Source: Sipunculus nudus (Eukaryota; Annelida; Sipuncula; Golfingiida; Sipunculidae). Taken from it: DNA of 64,000 nucleotides. The notes beneath the pieces were generated by a model that was given only the letters and a program-made list of their open reading frames with translations, ran no database searches and had not been told where the DNA came from. Location of the stretch: the NCBI GenBank assembly GCA_026874595.1, contig CM049320.1, positions 39,432,714 to 39,496,713 of the forward strand, written 5' to 3'. Shown in pieces: positions 4,401-43,638 of the stretch. The position numbers and the translations under genes were made by a program. Numbering within the stretch: the stretch's first letter is position 1; every line of letters begins with the position of its first letter.

Positions 4401-5088
4401 TCTGTGACCTATGTGGATTTTTGGTGTGAACGGTCGGGGTTATTTCTGTGACCTATGAAGATTTGTAGTGTGAATGGTCAGGGTTATTTCTGTGACCTAT
4501 GAGAATTTGTAGTGTGAATGGTCAGGGTTATTTCTGTGACCTATGAGGATTTGTGGTGTGAATGGTCAGGGTTATTTCTGTGACCTATGAGGATTTGTGG
4601 TGTGAATGGTCAGGGATATTTCTGTGAACTATGAGAATTTGTGGTGTGAATGGTCAGGGTTATTTCTGTGACCTATGAGGATTTGTGATGTGAATGGTCA
4701 GGGTTATTTCTGTGACCTATGAGGATTTGTGGTGTGAATGGTCAGGTTTATTTCTGACCTGTGAGGATTTGCGGTGTGAATGGTCAGGGTTATTTCTGAT
4801 CTGTAAGGATTTGTGGTGTGAATGGTCAGGGTTATTTCTGTGACCTATGAGGATTTGTGGTGTGAATGGTCATGGATATTTCTGTGACCTATGTGGATTT
4901 GTAGTGTGAATGGTCAGGGTTATTTCTGTGACCTATGAGAATTTGTGGTGTGAATGGTCAGGGTTATTTCTGTGACCTATGAGGATCTGTGGTGTGAACA
5001 GTCATGGATATTTCTGTGACCTATGAGGATTAGTGGTGTGAATGGTCAGGGTTATTTCTGTGACCTATGAGGATTTGTGGTGTGAATG
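1477..5088 (+). repeat. Satellite higher-order copy 0 (3612 bp)
   Basis: The first about 1.45 kb matches 5089-6545 at lag 3612, and the last about 1.8 kb (3265-5088) matches 7439-9262 at lag 4174. It is therefore the same higher-order unit as the next copy with about 560 bp missing in the middle, near 2935-3260. Bases 1-1476 before it are another rearranged partial: 1 to about 1070 match 1867 to about 2935 at lag 1866, and about 1190-1476 match 4802-5088. Confidence 0.85.
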
Positions 5089-8000: not shown

Positions 8001-9262
8001 GGGTTATTTCTGTGACCTATGAGGATTTGTAGTGTGAATGGTCAGGGTTATTTCTGTGACCTATGAGAATTTGTAGTGTGAATGGTCAGGGTTATTTCTG
8101 TGACCTATGAGGATTTGTGGTGTGAATGGTCAGGGTTATTTCTGTGACCTATGAGGATTTGGAATGTGAATGGTCAGGGTTATTTCTGTGACCTATGAGA
8201 ATTTGTGGTGTGAATGGTCAGGGTTATTTCTGTGACCTATGAGGATTTGTGGTGTGAATGGTCAGGGTTATTTCTGTGACCTATGAGGATTTGTGGTGTG
8301 AATGGTCAGGTTTATTTCTGACCTGTGAGGATTTGCGGTGTGAATGGTCAGGGTTATTTCTGACCTGTAAGGATTTGTGGTGTGAATGGTCAGGGTTATT
8401 TCTGTGACCTATGACGATTTGTGGTGTGAATGGTCAGGGTTATTTCTGTGATCTATGAGGATTTGTAGTGTGAATGGTCAGGGTTATTTATGACCTATGA
8501 GGATTTGTGGTGTGAATGGTCAGGGTTATTTCTGTGACCTATGAGGATCTGTGCTGTGAACAGTAATGGATATTTCTGTGACCTATGTGGATTTTTGGTG
8601 TGAACGGTCGGGGTTATTTCTGTGACCTATGAAGATTTGTAGTGTGAATGGTCAGGGTTATTTCTGTGACCTATGAGAATTTGTAGTGTGAATGGTCAGG
8701 GTTATTTCTGTGACCTATGAGGATTTGTGGTGTGAATGGTCAGGGTTATTTCTGTGACCTATGAGGATTTGTGGTGTGAATGGTCAGGGATATTTCTGTG
8801 AACTATGAGAATTTGTGGTGTGAATGGTCAGGGTTATTTCTGTGACCTATGAGGATTTGTGATGTGAATGGTCAGGGTTATTTCTGTGACCTATGAGGAT
8901 TTGTGGTGTGAATGGTCAGGTTTATTTCTGACCTGTGAGGATTTGCGGTGTGAATGGTCAGGGTTATTTCTGATCTGTAAGGATTTGTGGTGTGAATGGT
9001 CAGGGTTATTTCTGTGACCTATGAGGATTTGTGGTGTGAATGGTCATGGATATTTCTGTGACCTATGTGGATTTGTAGTGTGAATGGTCAGGGTTATTTC
9101 TGTGACCTATGAGAATTTGTGGTGTGAATGGTCAGGGTTATTTCTGTGACCTATGAGGATCTGTGGTGTGAACAGTCATGGATATTTCTGTGACCTATGA
9201 GGATTAGTGGTGTGAATGGTCAGGGTTATTTCTGTGACCTATGAGGATTTGTGGTGTGAATG
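5089..9262 (+). repeat. Satellite higher-order copy 1 (4174 bp)
   Basis: Longest higher-order copy, delimited by the positions where the matches at lag 4174 (to upstream) and lag 3442/7616 (to downstream) change register. It contains marker monomers such as GAGGATATATGG (about 5500), CTATCAGG (about 6062), the GTTAATTCTG variant (7601) and the GGAATGTG variant (about 8160). Confidence 0.85.
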
Positions 9263-12200: not shown

Positions 12201-12704
12201 CTATGAGGATTTGTGGTGTGAATGGTCAGGGATATTTCTGTGAACTATGAGAATTTGTGGTGTGAATGGTCAGGGTTATTTCTGTGACCTATGAGGATTT
12301 GTGATGTGAATGGTCAGGGTTATTTCTGTGACCTATGAGGATTTGTGGTGTGAATGGTCAGGTTTATTTCTGACCTGTGAGGATTTGCGGTGTGAATGGT
12401 CAGGGTTATTTCTGATCTGTAAGGATTTGTGGTGTGAATGGTCAGGGTTATTTCTGTGACCTATGAGGATTTGTGGTGTGAATGGTCATGGATATTTCTG
12501 TGACCTATGTGGATTTGTAGTGTGAATGGTCAGGGTTATTTCTGTGACCTATGAGAATTTGTGGTGTGAATGGTCAGGGTTATTTCTGTGACCTATGAGG
12601 ATCTGTGGTGTGAACAGTCATGGATATTTCTGTGACCTATGAGGATTAGTGGTGTGAATGGTCAGGGTTATTTCTGTGACCTATGAGGATTTGTGGTGTG
12701 AATG
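9263..12704 (+). repeat. Satellite higher-order copy 2 (3442 bp)
   Basis: Near-exact copy of 5821-9262, that is, the 4174 bp unit without its first 732 bp. Only scattered single-base differences were seen by eye, for example 6431 GTTAGG versus 9873 GTCAGG, and 7310 ATTCTTT versus 10752 ATTCTAT. The register and the low divergence point to recent unequal exchange. Confidence 0.85.
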
Positions 12705-15040
12705 GTCAGGGTTATTTCTGTGACCTATGAGGATTTGTGTTGTGAATGGTCAGGGTTATTTCTGTGACCTATGAGGATTTGTGGTGTGAATGGTCAGGGT
12801 TATTTCTAACCTTTGAGTATTTGTGGTGTGAATGATCAGGGTTATTTATGACCTGTGAGGATTTGTGGTGTTAATGGTGAGTGTTATTTCTGTGACCTAT
12901 GAGGATTTGTAGTGTGAATGGTCAGGATTCTTTCTGTCCTGTGAGGATTTGTGGTGTGAATGGTCAGTGTTATTTCTGTGACCTATGAGAATTTGTGGTG
13001 TGAATGGTCAGGGTTATTTCTGTGACCTATGAGGATTTATGGTGTGAAAGGACAGGGTTATTTCTGTGACCTATGAGGATTTGTGGTGTGAATGGTCAGG
13101 GTTATTTCTGTGACCTATGAGGATATATGGTGTGAATGGTCAGGGTTATTTCTGACCTGTGAGGATTTGTGGTGTGAATGGTTAGGGTTATCTCTGACCT
13201 GTGAGGATTTGTGGTGTGAATGGTCAGGGTTATTTCTAACCTTTGAGGATTTGTGGTGTGAATGGTCAGGGTTATTTATGACCTCTGAGGATTTGTGGTG
13301 TGAATGATGAGTGTTATTTCTGTGACCTATGAGGATTTGTGGTGTGAACGGTCAGGATTCTTTCTGTCCTGTGAGGATTTGTGGTGTGAATGGTCAGGGT
13401 TATTTCTGTGACCTATGAGGATTTGTGGTATAAATGGTCAGGGGTATTTCTGTGACCTATGGGGATTTGTGGTGTGAATGGGCAGGGTTATTTCTGTGAC
13501 CTATGAGGATTAGTGGTGTGAATGGTCAGGGTTATTTCTGTGACCTATGGGGATTTGTGGTGTGAATGGGCAGGGTTATTTCTGTGACCTATGAGGATTA
13601 GTGGTGTGAATGGTCAGGGTTATTTCTGTGACCTATGAGGATTTGTGGTGTGAATGGTCAGGGTTATTTCTGTGACCTATCAGGATTTGTGGTGTGAATG
13701 GTCAGGGTTATTTCTGTGACCTATGAGGATTTGTGGTGTGAATGGTCAGGGTTATTTCTAACCTTTGAGTATTTGTGGTGTGAATGGTCAGGGTTATTTA
13801 TGACCTGTGAGGATTTGTGGTGTTAATGGTGAGTGTTATTTCTGTGACCTATGAGGATTTGTAGTGTGAATGGTCAGGATTCTTTCTGTCCTGTGAGGAT
13901 TTGTGGTGTGAATGGTCAGTGTTATTTCTGTGACCTATGAGAATTTGTGATGTGAATGGTCAGGGTTATTTCTGTGACCTATGAGGATTTGTGGTGTGAA
14001 AGGACAGGGTTATTTCTGTGACCTATGAGGATTTGTGGTGTGAATGGTCAGGGTTATTTCTGTGACCTATGAGGATATGTGGTGTGAATGGTCAGGGTTA
14101 TTTCTGACCTGTGAGGATTTGTGGTGTGAATGGTTAGGGTTATTTCTAACCTTTGAGGATTTGTGGTGTGAATGGTCAGGGTTATTTATGACCTGTGAGG
14201 ATTTGTGGTGTGAATGATGGGTGTTATTTCTGTGACCTATGAGGATTTGTGGTGTGAACGGTCAAGATTCTTTCTGTCCTGTGAGGATTTGTGGTGTGAA
14301 TGGTCAGGGTTATTTCTGTGACCTATGAGGATTTGTGGTGTAAATGGTCAGGGGTATTTCTGTGACCTATGAGGATTTGTGGTGTGAATGTTTAGGGTTA
14401 TTTCTGTGACCTATGAGGATTTGTGGTGTGAAAGGACAGGGTTATTTCTGTGACCTATGAGGATTTTTGGTGTGAATGGTCAGGGTTATTTCTGTGACCT
14501 ATGAGGATATGTGGTGTGAATGGTCAGGGTTATTTCTGTGACCTATGAGGATTTTTATGGTGTGAATGGTCAGGGTTATTTCTGTGACCTGTGAGGATTT
14601 GTGGTGTGTATGGTCAGGGTTATTTCTGTGACCTATGAGGATTAGTGGTGTGAATGGTCAGGGTTATTACTGTGACCTATGAGGATTTGTGGTGTGAATG
14701 GTCAGGGTTATTTTTGTGACCTATGAGGATTTGTGGTGTGAATGGTCAGGGTTATTTCTGACCTGTGAGGATTTGTGGTGTGAATGGTTAGGGTTATTTC
14801 TAACCTTTGAGGATTTGTGGTGTGAATGGTCAGGGTTATTTATGACCTGTGAGGATTTGTGGTGTGAATGATGAGTGTTATTTCTGTGACCTATGAGGAT
14901 TTGTGGTGTGAACGGTCAGGATTCTTTCTGTCCTGTGAGGATTTGTGGTGTGAATGGTCAGGGTTATTTCTGTGACCTATGAGGATTTGTGGTGTAAATG
15001 GTCAGGGGTATTTCTGTGACCTATGAGGATTTGTGGTGTG
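12705..15040 (+). repeat. Satellite higher-order copy 3, partial (about 2.3 kb)
   Basis: Matches 5089 to about 7425 at lag 7616. After about 15040 the higher-order order is lost, and plainer monomers (with variants GTATGG, AATTTTCAGG, TTCTGG) run to the array edge at 15462. Confidence 0.8.
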
Positions 15041-15462
15041 TATGGTCAGGGTTATTTCTGTGACCTATGAGGATTTGTGGTGTGAATTTTCAGGGTTATT
15101 TCTGTGACCTATGAGGATTTGTGGTGTGAATGGTCAGGGTTATTTCTGTGACCTATGAGGATTTGTGGTGTGAATGGTCAGGGTTATTTCTGTGACCTAT
15201 GAGGATTTGTGGTGTGAATGGTCAGGGTTATTTCTGTGACCTATGAGGATTTCTGGTGTGAATGGTCAGGGTTATTTCTATGACCTATGAAAATTTGTGG
15301 TGTGAATGGTCAGGGTTATTTCTGACCTATGAGAATTTGTGGTGTGAATGGTCAGGGTTATTTTTGTCCTGTGAGGATTTGTGGTGAGAATGGTCAGGGT
15401 TATTTCTGTGACCTATGAGGATTCGTGGTCTGAATGGTCAGGGTTATCTCTGTGACCTATGA

Positions 15463-16240: not shown

Positions 16241-17106
16241 ACTAAACTAAGTTCTCAGGTAACTCAGGCCCTAAATAAAGTTCTTATGAACACTGGTAAA
16301 TCAGGAACTAAGTAAAGTTCTTATAAACACTGGTAACTCAGGCCCTAAATAGTTCTTATGAACACTGGTAACTCAGGCCCTAAATAGTTCTTATGAACAC
16401 AGGTAACTCAGGCCCTATATAAAGTTCTTATAAACACAGGTAACTCAGGCCCTAAATAAAGTTCTTATAAACACAGGTAACTCAGGCCCTAAATAAAGTT
16501 CTTATGAACACAGGTAACTCAGGCCCTAAATAAAGTTCTTATAAACACAGGAAACTGAGGCCCTAAATAAAGTTCTTATTAACACAGGCAACTCAGGTCC
16601 TAACTAAAGTTCTTATAAACACAGGTAACTCAGGCCCTAAATAAAGTTCTTATGAACACTGGTAACTCAGGCCCTTAATAAAGTTCTTATGAACACAGGT
16701 GACTCAGGCCCTAAATAAAGTTCTTATGAACACAGGTAACTCAGGCCCTAAATAAAGTTCTTATAAACACAGGAAACTGAGGCCCTAAATAAAGTTCTTA
16801 TTAACACAGGCAACTCAGGTCCTAACTAAAGTTCTTATAAACACAGGTAACTCAGGCCCTAAATAAAGTTCTTATGAACACTGGTAACTCAGGCCCTTAA
16901 TAAAGTTCTTATGAACACAGGTGACTCAGGCCCTAAATAAAGTTCTTATGAACACAGGTAACTCAGGCCCTTAATAAAGTTCTTATGAACACAGGTGACT
17001 CAGGCCCTAAATAAAGTTCTTATGAACACAGGTAACTCAGGCCCTTAATAAAGTTCTTATAAACTCAGGCCCTAAATAAAGATCTTATAAACAAAGGTAA
17101 TTCAGG
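16241..17106 (+). repeat. 37 bp minisatellite, about 23 units
   Basis: Tandem units of about 37 bp built from AAAGTTCTTATGAACAC, then AGGTAACTCAGG, then CCCTAAAT. Early units are shorter or degenerate. Most units carry AATAAAG at the junction and the near-palindrome GTTCTTATGAAC. A 222 bp (6-unit) block is itself repeated: the GAAACTGAGG variant occurs at about 16551 and about 16773, each followed by the TTATTAACACAGGCAACTC variant. Unrelated in sequence to the 44 bp satellite 0.8 kb away. Confidence 0.95.
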
Positions 17107-28127: not shown

Positions 28128-28354
28128 TCAAGCCAATAAACTGTGCAATACCTCCTGTGTTTCTACAATATACCTTTGTAGTTCTGTTTTGCTTTCCCTT
28201 GTTGTTAACGTCTCTTTGTCTTGATGGCTCTCTGGCTTTGGTAGTTCATACACAAGGTCTATTGGTTTCTTTTGACGGTGAGATTCTTCACAGGCTGTTG
28301 CAATCTGGGAACATCGAAGAGTCTCCTCTGCTGATACACTGAGCTGGACTTTAC
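28128..28354 (-). CDS. Oxidoreductase coding exon 7 and stop (227 bp)
   Basis: Enters after ATTTCCAG with [21 protein letters not shown], then [12 protein letters not shown], which is the family's usual final helix and end. It then continues with a charged tail of about 35 residues to TGA at 28130-28128. The tail is not a family feature that I recognise. A cryptic donor CAAAG|GTATAT (exon base 28174) could replace the last 15 residues if the exon at 22899-22956 is used. Confidence 0.88.
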
Positions 28355-31300
28355 CTGGAAATAGAGAGTTTTACATTTTTACTTCATCCTCCTAGGAACT
28401 AGCATGACTAACATAATAATTATAACATTTAATCACACAAATCTGGATTATTTCTGAACGAAGAATGCAAAATATGTCCCTCCATAATTCTTCTGATTCC
28501 GCCAATTTTTGATATTACCTCGGCCAAAAGGTATGCATTTATCCCCCTTTGTGTGTGTTGTTGACAACATTACTCATGCAATCATGAACTGAATCTCATG
28601 ATATTTTCAGGGCCTCTTGGGAATGGGCAAATGATGAATCGGTAAGGTTTTAGTGTGAATCAGGCACATGATCCGGATTCAGGAACGTCATCAAGGAATA
28701 TTCACAAATGTACAGGCACTTATGCATGAAAGAATTTGGGAATATGGGCTAAATAAGTGAATGCCAAGACAGTTTTGGGATCATTCCACAACAGGAACCC
28801 CAACATGATGGAGGCTTGAGTTTCTTAGAATAGTTTACTAGTCTTAGTACCCAAAATCCTCAACAGATGTTACTGTGCTAAAGTTCATTTCATCTCTATC
28901 CATGTGTAACTTAGCAGTTTGTAAATTTTTCCCCTCTCGCTATGAGCTTTAATAAATTCTTATATAAATATTATTTTAACTAATTCTTGTGGTAACACAA
29001 CCAATGGCTAAACCATCAGATCTCAAGACTGTACATATATGAATTAAAACTTTTAGTTTTTTTTGTATTATAATGATCTGTCTAAAATGAAAATCAAAAG
29101 GGAAACGATAGGTGTCCATTTTATCAAAGTAAAAATATCTGTGACAATTCAATTAATTTTGAGCTATTACAGATGTCATCCCTTTACATCCCTTAGTAAA
29201 TATAATTACCACAGAATCTATACCTGAAATTCATTATTCACCAAAAGAACATGCAAGACATTCATGTTGTAACTGCCAAAAACTTATTTTCTTTATGAAT
29301 AATCAAATTTTTTTCATGAATATTCATAATTTTCCTGATGAATATTCATAATTTGTTTGATGGATATTCATATATGTTAATTAAGAGTACACAGACCTTC
29401 CACCGCATCCAAGAAGTGGTCAAGACTGTTGATGTAGCTGTCTGCGTATCTCTGTGGGAAGGAATATTTAAGACAGTCCTTGTTGGTTCCTTTATTTGTG
29501 TAAGACACCACCCCTGTCGGTCGCTGGTCTCCACTAATTATCACCCCACTAGAGCCGAACACCTGCAAAAACATGTATCAAAATTCAAACTGAAGCCAGA
29601 AAAGTCATTCGAAAATTACGTTTAAATCCTGCTATATTTTACTATTATTTGAGAATTCGGACATGGTCTAAAAAAGTGTTATTCCACTATAAAATTTGAC
29701 AATTCATGTCCCCTTGCAAAAAAAGTTTTTTTCTGCAGATGGTTTCTCCCTAAAAACTGTCCTCTGAGTATTTTTGTATCCCATCCCAGTCATACCCTTA
29801 TATTCACACTAATTTCTAATAAAGGTTAAAATGAGATTAATGTAAAAAGACTCAGCTTTCATGCTAATATGAAAGACTCAACCTGCAAAAATTTAAATTT
29901 CAGGCCCATATAATGCTTAATATAAAATACTCTCAACCTGCAAAAAAATAAAATTTCAAAATTTAATTTCAGACCCATTTTATGCTAATGTAAAAAGACT
30001 CAACCTGCAAAAAATTTAAATTTTAGGCCAATATCATGCTAATGTAAAGACTACATCTGCAAAAAAAAAAAAAAGCTCATTTCAGGTTAATGTAAAATAC
30101 TCTAGAACATGCAAAAAAAAAAATAAATTTCCCGCCATTTTCATGATAATGTAAAAGACTCAACCTGCAAAAAAACTAGAATACGGGTAGTTGAAAAACG
30201 ACTACATGTATCCGCTGAAATCAGAAAGGGACGGGTGAAGCGATGCATGGATTGAGTGGCTAAGGGAAATAGACAGGATGTTTTTTCATATAAGCATGGA
30301 TGACGCGAAACCAGAGTTTGACAGGTGAAGTGAGACAGGGATTGAGTGGCAAGGGGAAATAGAGAGAGGTGTGTTGCATAAATGCATGGACATCTGCAGC
30401 AGAAATGTGCAAAATTTTAGGCAGATAAGTCAAACCACTGAAGAGATATGAGTGATTTTGTCCCACAGCAGACAAACAGACAGACGCTGTGCAAAAATGG
30501 TTGCAGGTGGCGCCACCAGTTTTGCATATGATAAAGAGCTATGTGAGATCTATACACATGCAAAATATTTGCCCAATCGGTCAGACGGTTCATGATAAGA
30601 GCTTGGATGTCTGCAACATAAAAGTGAATGTAGGTGGTGCCATCTGTCATAAAATCCAGGAAGCTATCCAGGATGAATACACATGCAAAATTTCAGGTGT
30701 ATAAGTCCATTCACTGCAGAGACATGAGTGATTTTATCACAAGGAAGATGAACATATGTACAGTGTGCAAAATGGTTGGAGGTGGCGCCACCATTTTTTA
30801 TGTATGTTATAAAGCTATCCAAGGGCTACAATTGTGCAAAAAATTTTTCCTGATTGGTCAAATGAGTCCAAAGATATGTGGATTAATGTGTCAAAACACA
30901 CGCACAGATGGATGCACTGGAGAGAGGAAAGGTCAGAGGTCAACTCAAAATATTTTGGCACCAGTTCACATATGACCCTATAATCGTGAAAAGTTTAGGA
31001 AAAATCTGTCCAGTGGTCTCAGAGTTCTATTCCTGAAACGAACGCAGCGGTGGCGGAACCCGGTGCAAAATTTCTTTTGGCGGATACAATTAAATTTGAG
31101 GCCAAATTTCATGCTTATGTAAAACATTCTGAACCTGCCAAAAATAAATTTCAGGTCCATTTCATGCCTTTATGACAATATTATGAAATTCTTGAATATT
31201 TAAATTTTACATCTCCCAATTGAATTTCTTGAGGTTTTAGGGACCTTATAGGGTTGTGCTGACCATTTAAATTACATATCTTACTTACCTCTAATCTTTG

Positions 31301-34300
31301 GTCATATCCATATGAGGCATTTCTACTGAGGTCGATTGTTGCTATGACACCACTTGGGAAGTTCATAATGATAGCAACAGTATCTACATCGTCCATGTCG
31401 GAAATTTCCTTCAGGTGAGCATGAGCCTGTGTGTAAACTCGTTCCGGCCATTCATCAAGAATCCAACACACCATATCTATGTCATGTACTGCACAATCAT
31501 GGAACATTCCACCTGAAAACATAAAAAACAATAAAAAGAAAGTAAATCCAGAGACTGCAAGGTTTTGCACTGGGTGGTAAAAACGAAGATTGTAATGACT
31601 AAATCAAATGAATTTTACATTAGTTTTCCATGATACTTTACCACATATAACAAGGGCACTGCAAAGCGGAGCATCCCCTCGCATGGGAGCATAATGATAT
31701 GGTTTGTATTAAGCAAGTGTTAAAATGAGGAGGGGAGGTGTCTGAGCTTGAGCTTTGACGTCAAACTCAATAAGTTGTACGTGCATTGGTGGGTTAGGCA
31801 TATGTGAAGGAGAAAGCTTAAGATCAAATGATTTGGCTTAAAATTGATCAATAAGGTATATTGAGACAGATGGGAAGACGGACAGGAAGACTTGGGTCCA
31901 TAAGCTTTTTCAAGAAGTGGGTGCTGTGGCTGTGACCTTTGACCCTGTGACCTCAAAACAGAAAGGTTTCTTCATCCATAGGTGGGTAAATCATATGTGT
32001 GAGATGAAAGATTTGTGTCAAATGGTTTAGCTTAAAAAGGGTCCACAAGCTTTTCAAGAATCAGGTGCTGTGGCCGTGACCTTTGACCCCATGACCTCAA
32101 AATCAATAGGTTTCTTCATCTAATGGTGGGTGAGCCATATGTGCAAGATGAAAGGTTTAGCTCAAACAGTTTTGCTTGAAATAGATCCACAAGCTTTTTC
32201 AAGAAGTGGGTGCTGTGGTTGTGACCTTTGACCTCAAAATCGATAGGTTTCTTCATCCATGGGTGTGTAAGCCATATGAGAGAGATAAAAGGTTTTGGGC
32301 AAACAGTTTGGCTTGAAATTGATCCACAAGGCAATTTCGGACGGACGGACAGGCGGACAGACGGACAGATGGACAGACACACAAACAGAGGCATTACTAT
32401 ATCCCTTGCAAGGGGATAATAATCATTACCTAAAATTTTAGGTATTCTAACAGAGATATTGACTGTTTACCTAAGATTGTTTGGTCTTATCATGGAGGTA
32501 GCTGCTGTTTACTTGCGATTTTCAGGTATTCTGTTAGAGATAGCTGAAGGCTACCTGGGATTTTCAGGTATTCTGTTAGAGATAGCTGATGGCTACCTGC
32601 GATTTTCAGGTATTCTGTTAGAGATAGCTGATGGCTACCTGCGATTTTCAGGTATTCTGTTAGAGATAGCTGATGGCTACCTGCGATTTTCAGGTATTCT
32701 GTTAGAGGTAGTGCATGGTTACCTGAGATTTTCAGGTATTCTGTTAGAGGTAGTGCATGGTTACCTGAGATTTTCAGGTAATCTATTAGAGGTAGTGGAT
32801 GGTTACCTGAGATTTTCAGGTATTCTATTAGAGGCAGTGGATGGTTACCTGAGATTTTCAGGTATTCTATTAGAGGTAGTGGATGGTTACCTGAGATTTT
32901 TAGGTATTCTATTAGAGGTAGTGGATGGTTACCTGAGATTTTCAGGTATTCTATTAGAGATAGCTGGTGGTTACCTGAGATTTTTAGGTATTCTAGCGGA
33001 GGTAGTGGATGATCTCGGCTGCAAGTCTTCACCATGTGTACCTTCCCGAACTCTCCATCCTGGACACGAGAACGCAAAATGCTGACGCTGGGATCAAACC
33101 TCCTGCAATATATCAAACATGTCTTCCATGTCTTCAAGAAATCAGCACACTGTGGTCGCTTTCATAATCAAGAGGTTAAGATTTTATGATTTTCACTTTT
33201 TCATAATTTTGCTTTGATGTCACTCACCATATAATAACCAATTATATTCATTATTTTATATAATTATATGAATACCCAAAGGAACACCTTAATAGTCTTA
33301 TTGCCTTCTTCATTATTGGTTGATAAAATAAAAGGTCTGATATTATTTATAAACATTCGTTTGATTTAGAGGTAACATTAAAATATGTTGTTTATAATAA
33401 TAATAATAATTTTTTTCCAAGTGTACAGGCCTCCGGCCTATAGAAACCTATAATCAAAAGAACATTAATTACTTTTTATGTGTTAGTTTGTGGTGCTTAA
33501 CCTTGGTGATGCAAATTATAAATTAAATGAAAATACAATTGGAAGTAACTAATTGTTACAAAAAAGATAATTGATTTTTCTGGGCACTGCAGGTACCATA
33601 GTATCCCCAGACAATTGATCCCCCCTCCCTTTAAGAATAGCCCCCCCCCCCCCCCCCCCCATCTTCATCAGCATATACTGACACTTAGCAAGCGATTATG
33701 GTTTCTTCCATCTATCAACTAGAGAAACAATATTTTTCACCAAATATGGAGGCCAATATGTTGAATCTCTCTTGAGAAAAGAGCATTCATTTATCTTACA
33801 GATAGTTAAGTAGGTGGCGCCACCTGTCTGGTTGACAAGAAAACTTTCCCAGATGGATGGACATGCCAAAATTTTAGACCAATACCTTGAACAAATCCGG
33901 AGATATGCGTAATTTTCACCCAAAGCACATGTACAGATGGACGCCACGCTAAAACTATTGCAGATGGCACCACCAGTCTTGAGTACAAAATTTAAGGAGT
34001 CTAAGATCTATGGATATGCACATTTTTAGGCCAACAGGGCAAATCACTCCTCATAAAAGAGTATTAATTTATTCTACAAAAATGGGAAGGTAGGTGGCGC
34101 CACCTGTATGGTTTATTAAAAAACTTTCCAAGATGGATGGACGTATGTAAGTCAAGTTTGAAACCCATATATCAATCCAAGCTGGAGTTATAAACAGGAA
34201 ATGAATTTTTGGACAGGTGGCTTCTGTGACCTTCACCTTTGCCCTTGTGACCTAAAAATGGATAGGGGTCTTCCTCTATTGGCAGGTGAACTATATCAGC

Positions 34301-37300
34301 AAGATAAAAGGTCTGAGATGAAAAGTTTGGCTGAAAATGCATCCACAATCTTTTCAAAGATGTGTGTCATGTGACCTTGACCTTTGCCCTCATTACCTCA
34401 AAATCAATAAGAATCTTGTTTTTTTTATTAGACTGGCCCAGTCCATGAAATAGTTATGACTTAACTGTTGCTTCTGACAGAGAAATCAAATGTTCCAGCG
34501 TTGAATTGCACTTAGTATCGGTACCCCCATCTTGCGACAACTCATATTACTAATTTTTCCACAATCTGACCCTCTTATTTCATGGACTGGTAATCTTGGT
34601 CGGTGAACTATATGTTCAAGATATAAGGTCTGAGACGTGAAAGTTTGGCTGAAAATGCATCCACAATCTTTTCAAAGATGTGTGTCTTAAGAACTTCACC
34701 TTTGACCTCATGACCCTAGAACCTATAGGGTTCTTACTTTAGTGGTGGGCCATACATAAGCCATGTTTGAAATCCATATGGCTTTGAACACTGGAGATAT
34801 CATAAGAGGTGTGTGATTTTCACCAAATATAGAAATATTAAAGGTCACAGCCACTCTCATGGTAAAGGTCATGACCCAAATTTAAATAGACCTCATCCCA
34901 TAACCCATCTCTCTACATGTTCATATTAAGAAAGAAATCAGTCCATTAGTTAGTTTTTGACTTATAATGCTCACAGTATTGTCAAGTGGCAATTATGGGG
35001 GTATTAAAAGGCGTAAAAACAAGAAAAGGGTTGTAGGTGGCGTCACCAGTTTCTAACATATCCCAAGGCTATCCAAGATCTTCAGTCATCTTGATTTTTG
35101 AGCCAGTCCATGCAAGCTTTCTTAAGATATTTAAGAATTTGTTTATTTTCAGCAAAAATGGACCTATTCAAGGTCAAGGTCACTCTCCTAGCAAAGGTCA
35201 TAACCCCATTTTAAATAGGCTTTGTCCTCTTACCTATATCTATACAAATGTAAAGTTTGAAAAAGATCAGTGAAATATTTTTTGAGTTATCCCGCTCACA
35301 AGATTTTTCTGTGGTGGCGGGACCTTCGTTAAACCATAGTATCCCGACTTTGTCTGGGGATACAATAAATAATAAGATAAAATAAGTAACAGTTTGTATA
35401 TATGTGTGTAAGACTTACATATACAAGCATTTGAAACAGCACTCTAACGTATAATGGATAGCAACTCTAAACAATCGCACATGTATAGGACATATTTACA
35501 AATTCATGCTGAATCACAAGGCAGTATATGTGCTGCCATCTACTGTCAGATAGGTGTATCAACTACACTTATCTCTGGCCATTTATTAAGTAAACAAGAA
35601 AACTGAAGTCCGGGTTATTGCTTAAAAGCCACACATAGGTAGCAGAATTGTTAAGGATATCTACTACAGTATAAATTTGGAAAAAAACTTTAAAAAAGTA
35701 AATGTTAATATATATTACCAGAGGTATATTTTAAACTAATTCTTGTTCAATATGGAATTCTTTTTTTTATATTTATGTGTGCAAACATTAAACAATCAAC
35801 GCTAAATAATTTCATCCTATATGTATTCAGTATGACAAAGCTGAAGAAGGATGTCCATTTCATTTCCAACTAAACATTCGCCTAATAATTTTAAATTATA
35901 AATATTAACTGCTGTTGTTATCTATTGTATCAGTCTTTGACATGCAAAACTGAAGGAAGGGAAGATACAGTGGTTGCCTATTAATTTTTAGGACATTTAA
36001 TTCCTGATATTTGCAATAGGGGAATTATCACAATAAAATAAAACCTTTGAAAAAAAAATATATAAGGCAAGTTGAAAGAAGAACATTGTTATTTGATATA
36101 ATAAAACTTTTACATTCACAGATTGCTATTTAAATTATTTCAGATCTTTCAAATTATATACCATTAATGAACAATATTGTTCGATGTAATTTTGGTCCCT
36201 GTCGAATTATTAAGATTTTGCACACATTTTATTTCAGATGAATAATTCATATAATATTGAATAATATTTGATAACTTTGTGAAGATTATTTTTAATATGG
36301 TATGATCGAGAAAATGGAACCTTCACAAAACATTGAAATTGGGGAAGTTCACAAAATTTTACCCCACAAAAATGAAGCCATCCACAGTATCAACATGGAT
36401 GATCACCTCTGTAGGTTGAGTGTTTTATTCATGACAATTTTATTTATGCAATAATTTTCCTTTCACAAACATCACAAATTTGAAAACCTCTTGAACAATA
36501 AGCCAATCATGGTAACCACCGTAATTCAAATTCATATCTTCCGCCTGTTAATGGCATCCTAAAATTTGTTGATTATACCTTTGTGTATAATTCATAAAGT
36601 TTTTTTTTTTAAATGTGATGGTGTATTTAGATGTAAATGTTTGTGATAATGCTACTGTACTCAGATCTCTTGAATTTTGATTCAGCTGCAATATTAAAAC
36701 ATCTTAATTTTTATCTGTGTACACTTAAAAAATTTGTTACACTTGTAATATTAGGCCAAAAAGAAGGTATGGTTCTCTGGCACATTATTTCAGAAATGAG
36801 TGCAGGTGGGCAGGTTTTTTTTTATTAACTTTATGTATGTTTCAATAAAAATTTATATGATCAGGAAAAGCATGATTTTAACATAATTTTTTTTTCTTAA
36901 AAGGTAAAAGCACTACATAACAAAGGAAAAACTTATCTAAATTGTATTTTTATCTTCTTTAAAGATGAAAATCAAAATCAAAATTTTAGATTGGGGGGGG
37001 GGGGGGGGGAGGGGTGTGTTAAATTTGAAGTGGGCGATGCCTGAGAACCATACCTATTATTTCTTTTTTGCATTTTAAAAAGGAACAGAGAGGTTGTATG
37101 TAACTGATGGCTATTTCATTTAATTTTTCCACTGTCTTTTTTCACTCTCTGAACTTTCAATATAACATCAATGACAACTTTGAAATGTGTTTTTCCCTTT
37201 GTAATGCCTTTATTACATATACACCAGAGGGTTCTGAAGTCGTAGTGACAAAAAAGAAAACTTTCAAGAAATGTATACAAATTAAGAGCACCTAAATAAA

Positions 37301-40300
37301 TGTTCTGATCTTCAGGGAAACTTTTTTCAAGTCCAGTGAAAGAAAAATTAATATATACAACTAAAAGTGCTTTGATAAATGCTCTGATAGTCAGGAAAAT
37401 CATGAGTTGAAAGTACATTCTTACCCTGCATTCTTAACTGCTGGTTTGTTTAGCTAGTTTGTTGTCACTTTAACACCAGGGGCTATTACTATCTGAAGGC
37501 CAAAAATCAGACTGATATGGGTGGAGTGTCACAGGTTTTAAAACTTGGAGCTGGATGCACAATATGACATCACACTCTCATTGGTCTCATTACAATTCTT
37601 GGCCCTGTGCCAGGCCTGGTGGTGAAACCCAGAGGATCTTGCTATAAAAGCAGCAGTTTAAGGGAAGGAGTTCTGCAGCTTGTAACTGCTGCATGAGGAG
37701 TGTAAAGAGTTGTGAGCAGCCCTGGTAACTACCTGTTGAAGGAACACAGCAGTGGCTTCCCAGCTGCTTCAGCCTCCTCATAACACAGCCTGGTGCTCTG
37801 GATATCCTCTGCAATTGGCTTCTCACAGAAAACAGCCTTACCTATGAAAAGAACAGACAGCAGAAACATGAGAATAAATAGAGAAGGTTGAAACTGGTAT
37901 TTCCTTTAAACTCTTTCAGTAAGGTTTCCCATTTATGGATGGTAAGTAGTAAATGTACAGGATATAGATATAATGTATAATTACTAAAACAAATACCCCC
38001 CCCTTACTAGGACGAGTTTTTGCAGTGTTTTCACAAAATTTTTAGGGCTAAGCCCCACTTCCATGTGATGTGGACCTTTGTAGGGTATACGCCCTCAGTG
38101 AAATTGGAATCCACCCCTCCCTCCCCTTCCCATAATCCTGGATCTGCCCCTATCTGTAGAAATGAAGTCTGTCTGACTGATAACATAATAAAATCAGTTG
38201 ATTGTTGGTTTGTTTTATATATGTTAACCAGGCTAATATGAAATTATTATCGATACTTGATGATGGATTATTTGATAGTTATCGTTACTTGGATCATGCA
38301 TGAAAATGATTACCTTTTCCAACAGGATTTACTCATCTTTTTTATAGTGCTGAAGGTTTTGTCCTGTGGAAACATTTTGTCAAACATTTGGTGTAGCCAT
38401 ATTTAGTTTCAATCAGAAATTTGACACACTACCAGGAAGTCATTTAGAATACTGTAGATCCCCATTTTATGGCCGTGCACCTATTTATAGCCACACCCTT
38501 GGTATGCAAGGCCCCTTCAAGGAGATACTATTATTGAACTAGATACTATGTGAACATCTATGGGCTGGCAATAATCCACTTTAGAAAACCATGATTTTTG
38601 CTAGAATTGACTAAAATCCACTTTTAAAATCAATTTGGAAAAAAAAAAGAATTTTGTCACCTATCTGATAATATAAACTATGAAAACAGTATTTCAGAAC
38701 ATTTCATCCTTTGTTATCCAATGCAATTATTAGTCTAGATTAGAAGTAAACACAATAATTTGTTCTTCTAAATCTGTAAACACCTATTTCAGATCAACAG
38801 CTTCATCCCATTGCAAACCTTTGGAGAAATGGACTGGTTCTCTTACTATAACAATATTCTTGATTTAAGTGGTTTGGACACATGTACATGGCACTCCACT
38901 GTAATGAATAATATCAACTATCAATTAGAAGGATTTTGTTATTACAATGTAATCATTGATAAATTTGATTTCAGATTAATAATATATGAGCCAAAAAGTT
39001 ACAATACTAGTATGCCTGTATACCCTTTATTTCTGTCAGCTGTTCCCTTTATTTGTCTAACAATATCCGATTCCAATGATGCAAGCCTGTGCCATGCAAT
39101 GTCTGAATTAAGATTAAGCCTTAGCTTTAGCTTTTTCTATGCTTTTTAATAAATTATATTTTAGCATGTTAATTTTATGCAACATTATGTTCACTACTGA
39201 TGTGTTGCCATGCCATATTTCATGATAATTCAGCAGATTGATAATGTAATAACATATTTATGAATGATATACTTGAAAATGTCCAGGTTGTCCTGGACCT
39301 TTTTTGTGACCAAATAAGCCAACCCGTCAACTGAAAAAGTGTTATACTGTGTGGTGAAATATAAGAGTATTAAATTCTATTGTAGTGCAGTGTGCTTTTG
39401 AGTCTTGTAATACTATCAACACAAGTTGGCCAATCCCTTAAACACAAATTTATTCATTTAAAATAATCAAATATCAAAAGATATTCAATTTGAGCATAGT
39501 ATGCAATCCATGTAAAGGTCAGTGGGAATGTGAAACTTGATGAAAAATTATTTCACATTGTGATAATACAACATTTGTATTTGATGATTTAATTTGATAA
39601 AATAAAAAAAAATGACTGCTCAACATTAAAACATTTTTATTACTTTTCTTTACTGGTTTAAATCAGGACTTTTAATCATACCAGCCCTGAAACACATGGA
39701 TTCTAAAATGAAAAATTCTGAAAGTGAAACCATGATAACAGGATAGTACCTGTGGACCTAATCAAAGCAGCACTGCTAATTCCCTGGTTTTTTTTTCATA
39801 AAAGTCAATTTGTCTTTCTTTCAATACTTACCCAAACTATGCCTGTTGGCAATCCATCAAGACACTCCATGTACTCGTATTAAATAGTAATTTGTATTAG
39901 GCTTGGACCTCTCCCACTACTAACCTATTTCAACAGAACAGCCTTTCTACTTAAGCTACTCCCTGGAGTGTCTCCAGGCTGCAGCACTATCACCCTTGAT
40001 CCCTCTTCTAGGTACACTTGTGTTCGATCAGTGTTTAAGAAAATGAAACCAAACACTGCCATAAGTGGGTGGTAGGCAACATATTCACTGGCTGGTGCAC
40101 AATCAGTGTTTTTAAGAAATAGAACACAACTAGCTGTTGACCCTATGCAATAGGTTCATGGATGAACATACTGTGATCTCATAGTGGGTAGTTGGAGCAA
40201 AAACAAAGTGGATGCAGACTATGACCATTAAATTTTATACCTGCCAAGGAAAAATTAGGGACTGACCACCAGTAATGAAGCAATGTTTACCTACACTGAA

Positions 40301-40648
40301 TGTTATAATAAGTGAATGTTATGAGTAAGTGAATGTTATATGAAGTTTTTTAAATGATTTCACTGTTTTTATGAGGTATAGTATATCTCAGGGGGTGGGC
40401 AGGGGCGTCAATATAGGGGGATATGGGGGGTATATATACCCCCCACTTTTTGGCAAGGGGGGATGGTCAATGTTATCATCCCCCCCACTTTTAAGAGAAT
40501 AATATTATAATATTGCAAATGAAATATATTAATAAATAAAATTAAAGACTTTGGATCCATTTACTAAAAACTGTTATATCTAAACCTTGCTAAGAATTCA
40601 CAAAATAACTTATTTCTAAAACATTATTATTATTTGAAACATGATTAA

Positions 40649-40694
<46 letters not shown>

Positions 40695-40713
40695 TAATAT
40701 GTCACTCAGAGAC

Positions 40714-40764
<51 letters not shown>

Positions 40765-43638
40765 TGTGTGTGTGTGCGTGTATATAAATATGTACAAAGT
40801 CATCCCCCCCCCCACCCTGAAAATTGATGCCACTGGGGGTGGGTAACGTTTCAATACAAAGGGGTCTGATAAATATGTTTACCATGTTTGAGTGAATTCC
40901 TAACATTCTCTTCATGTGTGTAGGTTGGAGTACATACAACCACAGCGCGCAAACTGTCAAGACAAGCACATGAACATAATAACAGCTCAAACAACGCTGA
41001 AAGAAAACAGGCAAGTCAGCCCACAGTCAAACCAGTAAGATAATCCAACATTACACTCACCAGCTATTACTGATTGTCAAATTTACAGTTGATTGTTCGG
41101 TGTCAGGTCCAGTGAGCAACTGGTTTGAAATTTGGAATTTCCAAAAGATGTATAAAATTTTAAGAAGAAAAGGAATTATTCTCTCTCTCAAGACTTTGGG
41201 CCTTTTATGCTTAAAGGCAGAATTACCATTTAACCATTCAATTGGCTAAGGCGGAATTTAAAGTGATGATCTGGGAACTTTATGAAAATAAATTAAGGGA
41301 AAGTAGGTTCCTAGAAAGGTCAAAGAATAATTCCTGGATAGTGTGTCATCAGTTCATCAGTGGAAAAATAAGAATTTGTGAAAAAACCCAAATGTTTATA
41401 AATCATATGTTTATATATATATTATATATATGTAATGTGAAAGACTGAAGAGGTCTTTTAATAAAAAAGAAGCAATTGAATCATTCTGAATAAAAACTAC
41501 ATTATGGTGATTCAAGTTATCCCCAAAACACAATTGAACTAGACATTTCTTGGCACCGCTGGTGCCATAGAATCGCCAGACAAATGAGGTTTTGTGGTAT
41601 TTTGTTGATATAATGTGATGTATTTTAGCAATGAATGTGAGAAACATTTGTACAAAATATAGGAATATTTTGGATTGGGAAGGACAATTGATCAAAGGGT
41701 TTTTGACTTATAATGCTCACAGTGCTGTCAAGTGGCCCTTTTTAAGATATTCATGATTTTATGTTTTTCACCAAATATGGGAATATTCAAGGTCAAGGTC
41801 ACTCTCATAGTCATGGTCATGACCCCAAATCAATAAACTGCATTCCAAAATATCCAACATTTGAAAAAAAAATTAAATTTAAAAAACAATAATTTAAATT
41901 AAATTTAATTTTAAAATTAAATTTAAAATTAAATATACCTCATTCCATAAACCATATCTATATACATGCATAACATGAAAGAAATCTGTCCATTACTGTT
42001 TGACTTATAATGCTCACAGTATATACTGTCAAGTGGCAATGATGGGGTATTCAAAGGCGCAAAAAACAAGAAAAGGACAACAGGTGGCGCCACCTATCTT
42101 CTGCAAAAGACAAAACTATCCAAGATGTTCCGTCAACTTGATTTTTGGACCAATCCATGCATCCCTTTTTAAGATATTCATGATTTTATGTGATTTTCAC
42201 CATATATGGTAATATTCAAGGTCAAAGCCACTCTCAAAGGAAAGGTCATGACCCCAATTTTAATATACATCATCCTATAACCTATACCTATGTACATGCA
42301 TAATATTAAAGAAATCTGTCGATCAGTTTTTGACTTGTGATGCTAAAAGTACTGTCAAGTGGCAATGATGGGGGTATTAAACGGCACAAAAGCAAGAAAA
42401 GGATACTAGGTGGCACCACCAGTTTCCGGTACATGACATCACTATCCAAGATCTTTGTCCAACTTGATTTTTGGATAAATCCATGAAAGATTTCTTGAGA
42501 TATTTAAGAATTTGTGTGATTTTCCCCAAAAATGGATCTATTCAAGGTCAAGGTCACTCTACTAGTTGAGGTCATGACCCCATTTTAAATAGGCTTCGTC
42601 CTCTCACCTATAAATATAAATGTGTCAAGTTTGAAAAAGATCCTTGAAATATTTTTTGAGTTATTGTGTCCAAAAGAAATCTCTGCGGCGGCGGCGGCGC
42701 AACCGTGCCTAAACCATAGTTTCTCCAGACTATGTCTGGCGATACAATGATCCTTTGGCATTTCCCTATCCCTCCCAAAAATAATTCTGTTCAAGGTTTT
42801 TGTGTGTAAAGTTGCTATGAGTCAAGGGGAAAATATAATACTGGTACATCACCACCTGGTTGAGATGAAAAAAGTCGGTAAGATTATCAGAACAACTGAG
42901 CTATGATATGTTTATGCATCATCGAGTTTCATGAGGGAAAAAGTATGAATAAAATAAAGTAAATAGTTCCCCTGCAATAGAGCACGGCCAGTGTGCAGCA
43001 CTATAAATACATAAGCAGGATACTGCCACCATACTGTACGAATCTTTTCAAAAGTGTGTCAGTAATCTGACCATGAGTCTTGTTGTTTTATAAATTTTGG
43101 TATCTGTATGGTAAAACAGTTACTTTTAATATAGACACAAATTTGAAAATTAACATACATAAAAAAATCTCAACCACAGCAATATTTCAGTGCCAGCAAA
43201 ACTACAATTTTGTCTGTACTAAAAATTACACATAATAACTAAATAACAATTGACTATCCAAATAATGAGCTGAAACAAAGGTATGACCAATATTTTTCAA
43301 TTTTAGTATCTCTCACAAAAAAATCAGTTTTTTTTTATGTTGAATGGACAATTTTTTAATTGTATCTCATCTTTGAACAGAAGTACTTCTATTTCCTGTG
43401 TATGACACACAGAATATTATACTTACTTGTTATCATTGTAGACAATATCAGCATCGCTGGGACTCACGACGATGGTCTCTGTGAGGTGGTAGAGGTCCAC
43501 CAGTTGCTGTGCCTTCTGCGTGTCCATCTCCACAATATACTTGAGATGCACACGGTAATTCCGGATCATATTACTGAAGTGAACATGGCCTGCCCGGCCA
43601 AGGCCAAAGAGGGCCACGCTAATTCTCTGGTTGGCCAT
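28128..43638 (-). CDS. Gfo/Idh/MocA oxidoreductase, YrbE / inositol dehydrogenase-like (7 coding exons)
   Basis: Joining seven minus-strand exons (43638-43427, 40953-40883, 37841-37733, 33102-32975, 31512-31289, 29562-29397, 28354-28128) gives 1137 bp, 378 residues plus TGA. Every junction is GT-AG and in phase. Residues 12-17 (GLGRAG) are the Rossmann NAD(P)-binding loop. C78-TPT, E101-KP and [15 protein letters not shown] (173-187) are family signatures, with D179 and H183 matching the D-x3-H catalytic pair of inositol dehydrogenases. Family members oxidise polyols or sugars with NAD(P); the substrate here is unknown. No signal peptide or membrane segment, so probably cytosolic. The last about 35 residues (after ELPKP, about 344) look gene-specific. 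Exon 4's 3' end and donor are amplified into a minisatellite. The start is the first ATG of exon 1, just before a conserved beta strand, with a 3' splice site only 12 bases upstream, so a non-coding first exon is expected. Confidence 0.93.
28515..28830 (+). repeat. CCTCGGCC-type interspersed repeat, partial
   Basis: Starts ATTACCTCGGCCAAAAGG and GTGTGTGTTGTTGACAACA, a start I associate with a common interspersed repeat of marine invertebrates. The end is unclear. Lies in intron 6. Confidence 0.4.
29397..29562 (-). CDS. Oxidoreductase coding exon 6 (166 bp)
   Basis: Between TTTTTGCAG and GTCTGT. Reads [19 protein letters not shown] and ends [17 protein letters not shown], the typical Y-x2-E/S...F-x2-A/S helix near the C-terminal end of the family. 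The open frames on the opposite strand are shadows. Confidence 0.93.
29830..31172 (+). repeat. About 60 bp tandem repeat in intron 5, interrupted
   Basis: Degenerate units with AAAGACTCAACCTGCAAAAA, AAATTTCAGGCCCAT and TCATGCTAATGT. About six units run from 29830 to 30174, and about two more from 31091 to 31172. The 30175-31090 element lies between them, so it inserted into the array. Confidence 0.8.
30175..31090 (+). mobile_element. Modular element, GTATCCGCC/GGCGGATAC termini (copy 2)
   Basis: Second copy of the 21149-22290 element. Starts CTAGAATACGGGTAG, has TGTATCCGC at about 30208 and ends GGCGGATACAAT. Perfect GGTGGCGCCACC at 30506-30517 and 30781-30792. It is somewhat shorter than copy 1, one module fewer. 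Inserted in intron 5. Confidence 0.78.
31289..31512 (-). CDS. Oxidoreductase coding exon 5 (224 bp)
   Basis: Between TGTTTTCAG and GTAAGT. Starts [19 protein letters not shown], with D179 and H183, and continues with the C-terminal sheet domain ([18 protein letters not shown]) to YGYDQRLE. Leaves in phase 0. Confidence 0.95.
31651..32421 (+). mobile_element. TGACCTTTGACC modular element in intron 4
   Basis: Begins AGGGCACTGCAAAGCGGAGC with ATCCCCTCGCATGGG and ends CCCTTGCAAGGGGATAATAA after a GGACGGACGGACAGGCGG tract. Inside are three to four repeats of about 145 bp, each with AAGCTTTTTCAAGAAGTGG, GTGACCTTTGACC and TCAAAATCAATAGGTTTCTT. No coding capacity. Abuts the exon 4 minisatellite at 32427. 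Confidence 0.65.
32427..32974 (-). repeat. 42 bp minisatellite made from exon 4 end plus its splice donor
   Basis: 548 bp, about 13 units of exactly 42 bp. On the gene's strand each unit runs from GTAACCATCC through AATAGAATACCTGAAAATC to TCAG. In exon 4's frame a unit reads [14 protein letters not shown], against the exon's own [14 protein letters not shown], so the array derives from the last 14 codons of exon 4 plus the start of intron 4. Units nearest the exon are most alike. Distal units read [14 protein letters not shown]. The frame is open through 11 units and stops at a TGA at about 32489. Confidence 0.95.
32513..32934 (-). promoter_or_regulatory. Eleven duplicated in-phase 5' splice sites
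   Basis: The last exonic bases would be at 32933, 32891, 32849, 32807, 32765, 32723, 32681, 32639, 32597, 32555 and 32513, exactly 42 bp apart from the canonical 32975. The first seven or so are TCAG|GTAACC or very close to it. The next three are CAG|GTAGCC types. The last is CGCAA|GTAAAC, a weak donor. All are phase 1, as needed for exon 5. A further CTTAG|GTAAAC at 32471 lies beyond the in-frame stop. Use of any of these sites is inferred, not shown. Confidence 0.7.
32975..33102 (-). CDS. Oxidoreductase coding exon 4 (128 bp), shortest form
   Basis: Enters after ATATTGCAG and reads [19 protein letters not shown] and then [12 protein letters not shown], ending TCAG|GTAACC in phase 1. This donor gives the family-normal junction S-G-G-M-F-H-D with exon 5. 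The frame stays open for a further 11 x 42 bp into the adjoining minisatellite, each unit offering another in-phase GT, so longer exon 4 forms are possible. Confidence 0.92.
33582..35366. mobile_element. Composite element with GTATCCCCAGACA inverted ends, intron 3
   Basis: Left end is CCATAGTATCCCCAGACAA (about 33597-33615). Right end is TTTGTCTGGGGATACAATA (about 35349-35367), its inverse. Contains palindromes at 33813-33824 and 34093-34104 and a variant at 35037, CAAGGTCAAGGTCACTCT modules, a C20 run at 33641-33660 and a nested small element at 34438-34590. Related to the element at 41540-42749 (shared TTTTTGACTTATAATGCTCACAG and matching ends). Confidence 0.75.
34438..34590. mobile_element. 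Small inverted-repeat element, CCAGTCCATGAAATA (copy 1)
   Basis: Starts CCAGTCCATGAAATA and ends TATTTCATGGACTGG, a 15 bp perfect terminal inverted repeat over 153 bp. A second copy lies at 47121-47272. It is nested within the larger intron 3 element, so it inserted later. Confidence 0.8.
35367..36750. other. Intron 3 sequence, nothing recognised
   Basis: AT-rich unique DNA. About 100 bp at 36410-36510 resembles 22670-22770. Confidence 0.5.
36751..37070. mobile_element. Small inverted-repeat element, GGTATGGTTCTC (copy 1)
   Basis: Left end TTAGGCCAAAAAGAAGGTAT then GGTTCTCTGGC. Right end GCCTGAGAACCATACCTA. The interior shares GGAAAAGCATGA and AAAAGCACTACATAACAAAG with 49300-49582, where the element lies in the opposite orientation. 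About 320 bp, includes a G17 run (36993-37009), non-coding. Confidence 0.8.
37733..37841 (-). CDS. Oxidoreductase coding exon 3 (109 bp)
   Basis: Between TTTTCATAG and GTAGTT. Reads [16 protein letters not shown] and on to LLCSFN. E-K-P (residues 101-103) is the family hallmark; the lysine lies by the nicotinamide and substrate. Confidence 0.93.
37985..38155. mobile_element. CCTGGATCTGCCCC-ended short element, tentative
   Basis: C-rich start near 37998 and end CATAATCCTGGATCTGCCCC, resembling the GGATCCGCGCC end of the element at 62593-62796 and the GCGGATCCAGG start at 63868. Confidence 0.35.
38156..40394. other. Intron 2 sequence, nothing recognised
   Basis: A 112-codon plus-strand frame at 38811-39149 has no recognisable motif, AT-driven composition and no splice context. 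Confidence 0.5.
40395..40840. mobile_element. GGCGTCAAT inverted-end element with (TA)n core
   Basis: Left AGGGGCGTCAATATAGGGGG and right AAAATTGATGCCACTGGGGG are inverted at GGCGTCAAT/ATTGATGCC. Two (TA)n runs (40650-40691 and 40725-40761) lie inside. Non-coding, intron 2, ending about 40 bp from exon 2's donor. Confidence 0.6.
40883..40953 (-). CDS. Oxidoreductase coding exon 2 (71 bp)
   Basis: Short exon between CTTGACAG and GTAAAC that reads [17 protein letters not shown], the TPT-x2-H motif of the cofactor-binding domain. It lies in a different frame from the longest open frame here, so it is easy to miss. Two carried bases enter and one leaves, matching both neighbours. Confidence 0.92.
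41540..42749. mobile_element. Composite element with GCCAGACA inverted ends, intron 1
   Basis: Left GCCATAGAATCGCCAGACAA, right TATGTCTGGCGATACAATG preceded by GCGGCGGCGGCGG. Modules carry a perfect GGTGGCGCCACC at 42083-42094, the variant GGTGGCACCACC near 42411, and CAAGGTCAAGGTCACTCT. Same family as 33582-35366. Confidence 0.75.
43427..43638 (-). CDS. Oxidoreductase coding exon 1 (residues 1-70)
   Basis: Starts [17 protein letters not shown], the dinucleotide-binding beta-alpha-beta start, with acidic E37/D39 after the second strand. Ends AACAA|GTAAGT, two bases into a codon. The exon begins at about 43650, where TTTTTGCAG provides an acceptor just upstream of the ATG. Confidence 0.93.

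Follow-up and report, generated by a model that had tools for sequence, protein, structure and literature searches.

A gene for an inositol 2-dehydrogenase-like oxidoreductase of Sipunculus nudus carries, where its fourth exon passes into intron, a tandem array that repeats an exon end together with its splice donor. This raises the question of whether such an array sets the length of the protein or is a neutral minisatellite spliced mainly from its first donor. We addressed this question in a 64,000-nucleotide stretch of contig CM049320.1 (assembly GCA_026874595.1, positions 39,432,714 to 39,496,713), here called the window; all positions given below are those of the window. In the gene model, 6/6 introns are GT-AG and the exons join into a single open frame of 378 aa. 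The protein matches PF01408, PF02894 and PF22725 above the Pfam cut-off, covering the Rossmann and C-terminal domains, and its top solved structure by sequence is 4hkt, an inositol 2-dehydrogenase (E 8.5e-60). The top protein match, P0001 of the brachiopod Lingula anatina, spans 89% of the query with 57% identity; because no match is closer than this, the protein set seems to contain no close relative of the source animal. Homologue counts below refer to the best 120 of 7181 matches, which makes them close homologues by choice.

Anatomy of the array and its founder

The array starts at the exon-intron border and includes the donor itself (Table 1). TRF called a core array of period 42 at 32495-32994 (11.9 copies, 93% matches) and, more widely, the same array at 32426-33007 (13.9 copies, 89%). 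The founder shares 30-39 of 42 bases with units 1-11, which share 34-42 of 42 among themselves. In-register matches to the array consensus number 34-42 of 42 in the founder and units 1-11 and 29 and 27 in the two edge units, the second of which lies inside the shuffled range (maxima of 23-27 in 20 shuffled windows); the rest of the window reaches at most 25 of 42. We rejected the idea that the array is a member of a dispersed element, as its top match elsewhere within the window is 25/42, like that of shuffled windows.

Table 1. Positions of the host gene, the array, its donors and the predicted hairpin in the window
Feature	Position	Strand	Remarks
Inositol 2-dehydrogenase-like (Gfo/Idh/MocA) gene	28128..43638	-	7 exons, 378 aa, stop codon included
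Exons 1-3 of this gene	43638-43427, 40953-40883, 37841-37733	-	Gene model
Exon 4	32975..33102	-	128 bp; ends with first base of Gly codon; gene model
Intron 4	31513..32974	-	1462 bp, GTAACC...TTTCAG; array at its 5' end; gene model
Exons 5-7 of this gene	31512-31289, 29562-29397, 28354-28128	-	Gene model
Founder unit	32970..33011	-	Last 37 bp of exon 4 + GTAAC of intron 4
Units 1-11	32508..32969	-	42 bp each; no stop in exon frame; each with in-phase GT donor
Two degenerate edge units	32424..32507	-	First has in-frame TGA and TAA, closing the open frame
Donor 1, presumed authentic	32973..32974	-	CAG/GTAACC; its 378-aa protein fits 119/120 homologues without insertion here
Donors 2-6	GT starts 32932, 32890, 32848, 32806, 32764	-	Phase 1, frame-compatible with exon 5
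Donors 7-12	GT starts 32722, 32680, 32638, 32596, 32554, 32512	-	Phase 1, frame-compatible with exon 5
Predicted hairpin TACCTGA-AAATC-TCAGGTA over donors, per unit	32510..32990	-	Pattern hits and folding; 6-7 bp stem

A preliminary description of this locus had proposed that an exon end had been amplified in tandem with its donor, and this is borne out: the end of exon 4 is the founder, followed by 11 further units. It had also held that the last 14 codons of exon 4, plus the first bases of intron 4, were repeated as exact 42 bp units. Instead, the exonic part is 37 bp (12 codons plus one base), to which five intron bases are added, and units 8 and 9 are the sole identical pair among units 1-11. 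The array is also longer than the 11 units described, with two more degenerate units reaching to about 32424. The proposed 42-bp donor steps in one phase stand, but the positions given for them (32975 to 32513) do not: the GTs begin at 32974 ... 32512, and 32975 is the last exon base. That the frame is open over 11 units and that 12 donors fit exon 5 was confirmed.

Since the unit length of 42 bp is divisible by three and the frame of the founder is open, the donors of the good copies share one phase, and later donors fit exon 5 automatically unless a stop arises. Use of the 12 donors would accordingly give full-length proteins of 378, 392 ... 532 aa. Two further array donors, at 32470 and 32429, would shorten the protein to 334 aa, owing to the stops in unit 12, the first of the degenerate edge units. 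The motif CAG/GT is kept in the founder and units 1-10; unit 11, which bears donor 12, has CAA/GT (CAA/GTAAAC). Predicted pairing with the U1 5' end was -8.0 kcal/mol for donors 1-7, -7.7 for donors 8-11 and -3.0 for donor 12, and -5.3 to -12.3 kcal/mol for the other five donors of the host gene. Thus 12 donors look functional and lie in a compatible phase, 11 of them with predicted pairing of -7.7 or better.

On the evidence of the aligned sequences, the end of exon 4 is the founder of the array and the array peptide is its drifted copy, because 120/120 homologues (best 120 of 7181) align through the exon 4/5 junction, with residues on both sides of it. The segment at the exon end closes in YLKISG exactly in 64 of these 120 best matches and in [S/A][G/N] in all 120; S173 is present in 119, and G175, D179, H183, D184 and D186 are identical in 120. 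The longer forms would insert 14n residues between G174 and G175, so that D179, five residues past G174, and H183, nine past it, would follow the insert. In Bacillus subtilis IolG the catalytic triad is given as Lys97/Asp172/His176 in the available text of PMC9603128. The spacing of D179 and H183 equals that of Asp172 and His176, and K102, D179 and H183 of the 378-aa form, each identical in 120/120 homologues (best 120 of 7181), are by motif and spacing the presumed catalytic Lys, Asp and His. Because the inserts fall immediately ahead of the residues presumed to be the catalytic Asp and His, and 119/120 homologues (best 120 of 7181) have no insertion at the G174/G175 junction, we infer that the longer forms would be poor enzymes and probably inactive. 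The one homologue of these 120 with an insertion at the same junction is P0085, a Timema douglasi gene model with seven residues, QGKTDIS, between ISG and GIYHD; two further Timema proteins, P0014 and P0051, are without it, and the insertion may stem from faulty annotation or from a splice site that has shifted.

The window holds other tandem repeats. Its left quarter (1-15462) is taken up by a 15.5-kb satellite in which a 44-bp unit recurs about 355 times. A second minisatellite, at 16256-17069, has 22 copies of a 37-bp unit that also contains CAGGTAAC; 37 is no multiple of three, and we set it aside as a second case of donor repetition, as no adjoining exon was recognised by eye. Downstream of the array, intron 4 contains 3.1 tandem copies of a 144-bp unit (31897-32330) and, at 32338-32378, an array of CGGACAGA, so that this intron holds several arrays in a row.

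Apparently neutral divergence of the repeat units

Units 1-11 carry 13 distinct derived alleles at 12 columns, of which nine are nonsynonymous, four synonymous and none a stop. Random changes to the unit consensus would be expected in shares of 0.64-0.68 nonsynonymous, 0.27-0.34 synonymous and 0.02-0.05 stop, and pooling the 55 pairs that units 1-11 form gives a pN/pS of 1.21, in a small sample of mutually dependent units. With a transition weight of 2, the probability of meeting no stop is 0.62 for 13 changes, 0.48 for 20 and 0.33 for 30. We therefore found no sign of selection on the array peptide in pN/pS or in the stop counts, and the differences between units look neutral; because the sample is small and its units are not independent, the array units may be under weak amino-acid constraint. 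The open frame across the array is weak evidence for a function, as openness is expected about half the time. From a 5.8-billion set of predicted proteins that seemingly lacks a close relative, 7996 candidates were scored against the array peptide, and none reached E<=0.001.

Two of the six frames of the array are free of stops, the exon frame and one antisense frame. The latter forms an open frame of 220 codons on the + strand (32423-33085) that spans the array and is probably a by-product of the 42-bp unit. The preliminary description had gone on to propose a frame-safe protein length switch set by repeat number. The pN/pS of 1.21, an open frame within reach of chance and a stop-free antisense frame do not support this proposal, and it is further opposed by the site of the inserts and by their absence from 119/120 homologues (best 120 of 7181). 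As it stands, the protein length switch is unproven and unlikely.

A predicted hairpin over most donors

Most units contain the hairpin sequence of Table 1 or a close variant of it, with the donor inside a predicted stem of 6 or 7 bp. Among seven donors that were folded, the predicted hairpin energy was -8.5 kcal/mol at donors 2 and 4 and -7.2 and -8.1 at two later donors. Donors 1 and 3 are preceded by TACCTA, which gives a weaker predicted fold (-4.9 and -3.1 kcal/mol), and the hairpin is lost ahead of donor 12 (-1.2 kcal/mol). In 150-nt sliding windows, the predicted probability that the nine donor bases are unpaired was 0.0052 for donor 1, 0.0032 for donor 3, 0.107 for donor 12 and at most 0.0014 for each of donors 2 and 4-11, absolute values that shift strongly with context and temperature and are not to be trusted as such. 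The other five donors of the host gene ranged from 0.0058 to 0.119 on the same measure and 38 intronic GTA sites had a median of 0.025, so that donor 1 itself is predicted to be less exposed than the median intronic GTA site. When the flanks were shuffled in a 120-nt context (500 shuffles), 1% of the shuffles matched donor 2 in closure and 7% matched donor 1. A search for known RNA families returned three matches, all to miRNA families on the + strand (E 0.038-0.21), which scored 20.8-23.3 bits against gathering thresholds of 49-84 and were treated as chance.

The predicted advantage of donor 1 over the other donors depends on how the RNA is framed. In eight windowed settings its exposure lies 9- to 41-fold above the median of donors 2-11 and, when full partition functions are computed for 16 fixed contexts, 1.6- to 641-fold above it; in the 120-nt context of the shuffles donors 1 and 2 are nearly equal (4.5e-5 and 2.5e-5), and in 300-nt windows donor 3 is above donor 1 (0.0014 and 0.0012). 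Over the 16 fixed contexts, donor 1 ranked first among donors 1-11 in three, second in eight and fourth to sixth in five; donor 3 ranked first in 11, second in four and fourth in one, and surpassed donor 1 in exposure in 13. Donor 12 had the top exposure of all twelve donors in 16/16, yet its predicted U1 pairing is weak. When exposure was multiplied by U1 pairing, donor 1 took 38-47% and donor 3 14-44% of predicted use across the eight settings, with donor 3 first or second in 8/8 and ahead of donor 1 in 2/8. We therefore rejected the hairpin as a sufficient reason for the use of donor 1. As modelled, folding lowers most of the extra donors but does not account for why donor 1 would be preferred to donor 3; such a preference is instead suggested by the conserved protein without insert and by the parallel with IFI6 discussed below. 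The +84-nt form that would result from donor 3 (406 aa) is consistently predicted to be the likeliest leak.

We also compared the derived alleles with unseen changes for their effect on masking, a test conceived only once the hairpin was known and applied to alleles that are spread by copying and so are not independent. On the founder background, masking is stronger for the 17 derived alleles than for unseen changes (Mann-Whitney p 0.0083 and 0.0095 for two window sizes; with matching by base change, p 0.012 and 0.0066). On the array consensus background the difference was not significant (p 0.078 and 0.27; matched, 0.081 and 0.099). The silent change from CTA to CTG occurs in 10/11 units, the unit of donor 3 having kept CTA; a C to T change at unit position 10 (counted from 1), present in 5/11 units, is among the most exposing changes. 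One could read these data as a donor ladder that masks itself, in which accumulated changes, namely the silent CTA to CTG plus donor-adjacent changes in some units, would have folded the extra donors into hairpins, kept most of them out of use and left a reserve of in-frame isoforms with a leak at donor 3 (+28 residues). We regard this reading as improbable. A literature search found no paper joining three or more of the subjects tandem donor, 5' splice site, hairpin and tandem duplication.

Precedents, origin and probable use of the donors

Arrays of this kind are already known from human IFI6, and the present case is a further example, in an unrelated gene. The IFI6 (6-16, G1P3) array lies at an exon-intron border and, with its 12-bp unit, likewise steps in frame. 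The two cases differ in that the unit here is 42 bp long, its founder can be shown to be a conserved exon end and most donors lie in a predicted hairpin. In the available text of PMC4526556, which cites Turri, Cuin and Porter 1995 (Nucleic Acids Res 23:1854), the IFI6 minisatellite is described as serving as multiple splice donors, with two downstream repeat units used as extra donors and a 130-aa form that predominates. The likeness is one of anatomy, in minisatellite units that carry donors. In the available text of PMC11830802, VNTR6-1 in intron 6 of TERT (38-bp unit) is likewise an intronic minisatellite linked to splicing differences, but its effect is ascribed there to G-quadruplexes, some 3.5 kb upstream of exon 7, and the terms 'splice donor' and 'donor site' are absent from that text.

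Other precedents concern the birth of introns. The 24-nt repeats of Schizosaccharomyces SPOG_01682 and SOCG_00815 are, like the array, multiple non-identical tandem copies, there of an exon segment with AGGT, and are described as forming a new intron (available text of PMC3629103 and PMC4974935), whereas the repeats here lengthen the 5' end of an intron with its own acceptor. ATP2A1 and the potato RdRp gene also show tandem duplications bearing splice signals, that of potato likewise crossing an intron-exon border; according to the available text of PMC4974935 these duplications gave a new intron, whereas here many copies give many alternative donors. These precedents, together with the CAG/GT of the founder and units 1-10 (CAA/GT in unit 11), would favour an intron gain in progress, or stepwise splicing in which the AG of a unit acts as acceptor and parts of the array are removed as small introns. 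We consider this very unlikely: no pyrimidine tract was seen by eye before the AGs of the units, unlike at the exon 5 acceptor, and the array sits within an intron that has its own. In the terms of the Rogers model of intron gain by tandem duplication, the AGGT of the founder (CAG/GTAAC) straddles the exon-intron border rather than lying inside the exon. Nor is intron 4, in the gene model, bounded by a duplicated donor and a duplicated acceptor: its acceptor is its own, rich in pyrimidines and placed at 31513, which makes the intron 1462 bp long from donor 1.

It is probable, though far from certain, that the array is a neutral minisatellite seeded by the exon end, with donor 1 dominant and a minor in-frame leakage from donors further down. 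In this account, a tandem duplication over the exon 4/intron 4 border would have copied the 37 bp of exon end with the 5 bp of intron, an event that would be nearly harmless because the first copy stays a complete exon end with its donor and the second falls into the intron. Unequal exchange or slippage would then have led to growth to 12 good copies and two degenerate ones; with the working exon and donor retained in the first copy, the extra copies would be tolerated in the intron and drift neutrally as protein-coding sequence. Splicing would proceed mainly from donor 1, giving the 378-aa enzyme; downstream donors would give minor in-frame longer mRNAs (+14n residues), chiefly from donor 3, while the predicted hairpin would cut the use of most others. 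What speaks against a dominant donor 1 is that the predicted U1 pairing is the same for donors 1-7 and that folding, as modelled, fails to single it out.

The alternatives differ mainly in how much use they grant the downstream donors. If several were used to a meaningful extent, repeat number would set a graded series of functional isoforms in steps of 14 residues. This agrees with the frame compatibility of 12/12 donors, with the similar predicted U1 pairing of 11 of them, with a frame open through 11 units and with the greater predicted exposure of donor 3 relative to donor 1 in most contexts; the lack of detectable amino-acid constraint, an openness expected about half the time, inserts placed directly ahead of an invariant segment and the failure to find the array peptide in any scored protein, in a set seemingly without a close relative, make it unlikely. 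An ordinary intronic minisatellite whose downstream donors are ignored, donor 1 alone ever being used, would fit the predicted masking of most of these donors, the neutral drift of the units and the 119/120 homologues (best 120 of 7181) without insert. Complete silence would nevertheless be surprising, because donors 2-7 pair with U1 as donor 1 does and donor 3 is usually the more exposed, and the downstream repeats of IFI6 are used (available text of PMC4526556); we think it a doubtful reading, if a less remote one than graded isoforms. That the copy number is misassembled or the gene not expressed might be suspected from a single assembly with long tandem arrays elsewhere in the window, but an array of ~580 bp, with units that are mostly distinguishable, in an intact 7-exon gene with its splice sites makes such an artefact highly improbable.

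These results indicate that a tandem duplication over an exon border can be harmless, as the first copy keeps the exon and the rest becomes intron. If donors past the first are used, a single exon would have a natural row of competing donors that are almost alike and differ mainly in position and hairpin strength, a ready test of how position and RNA structure govern 5' splice-site choice.
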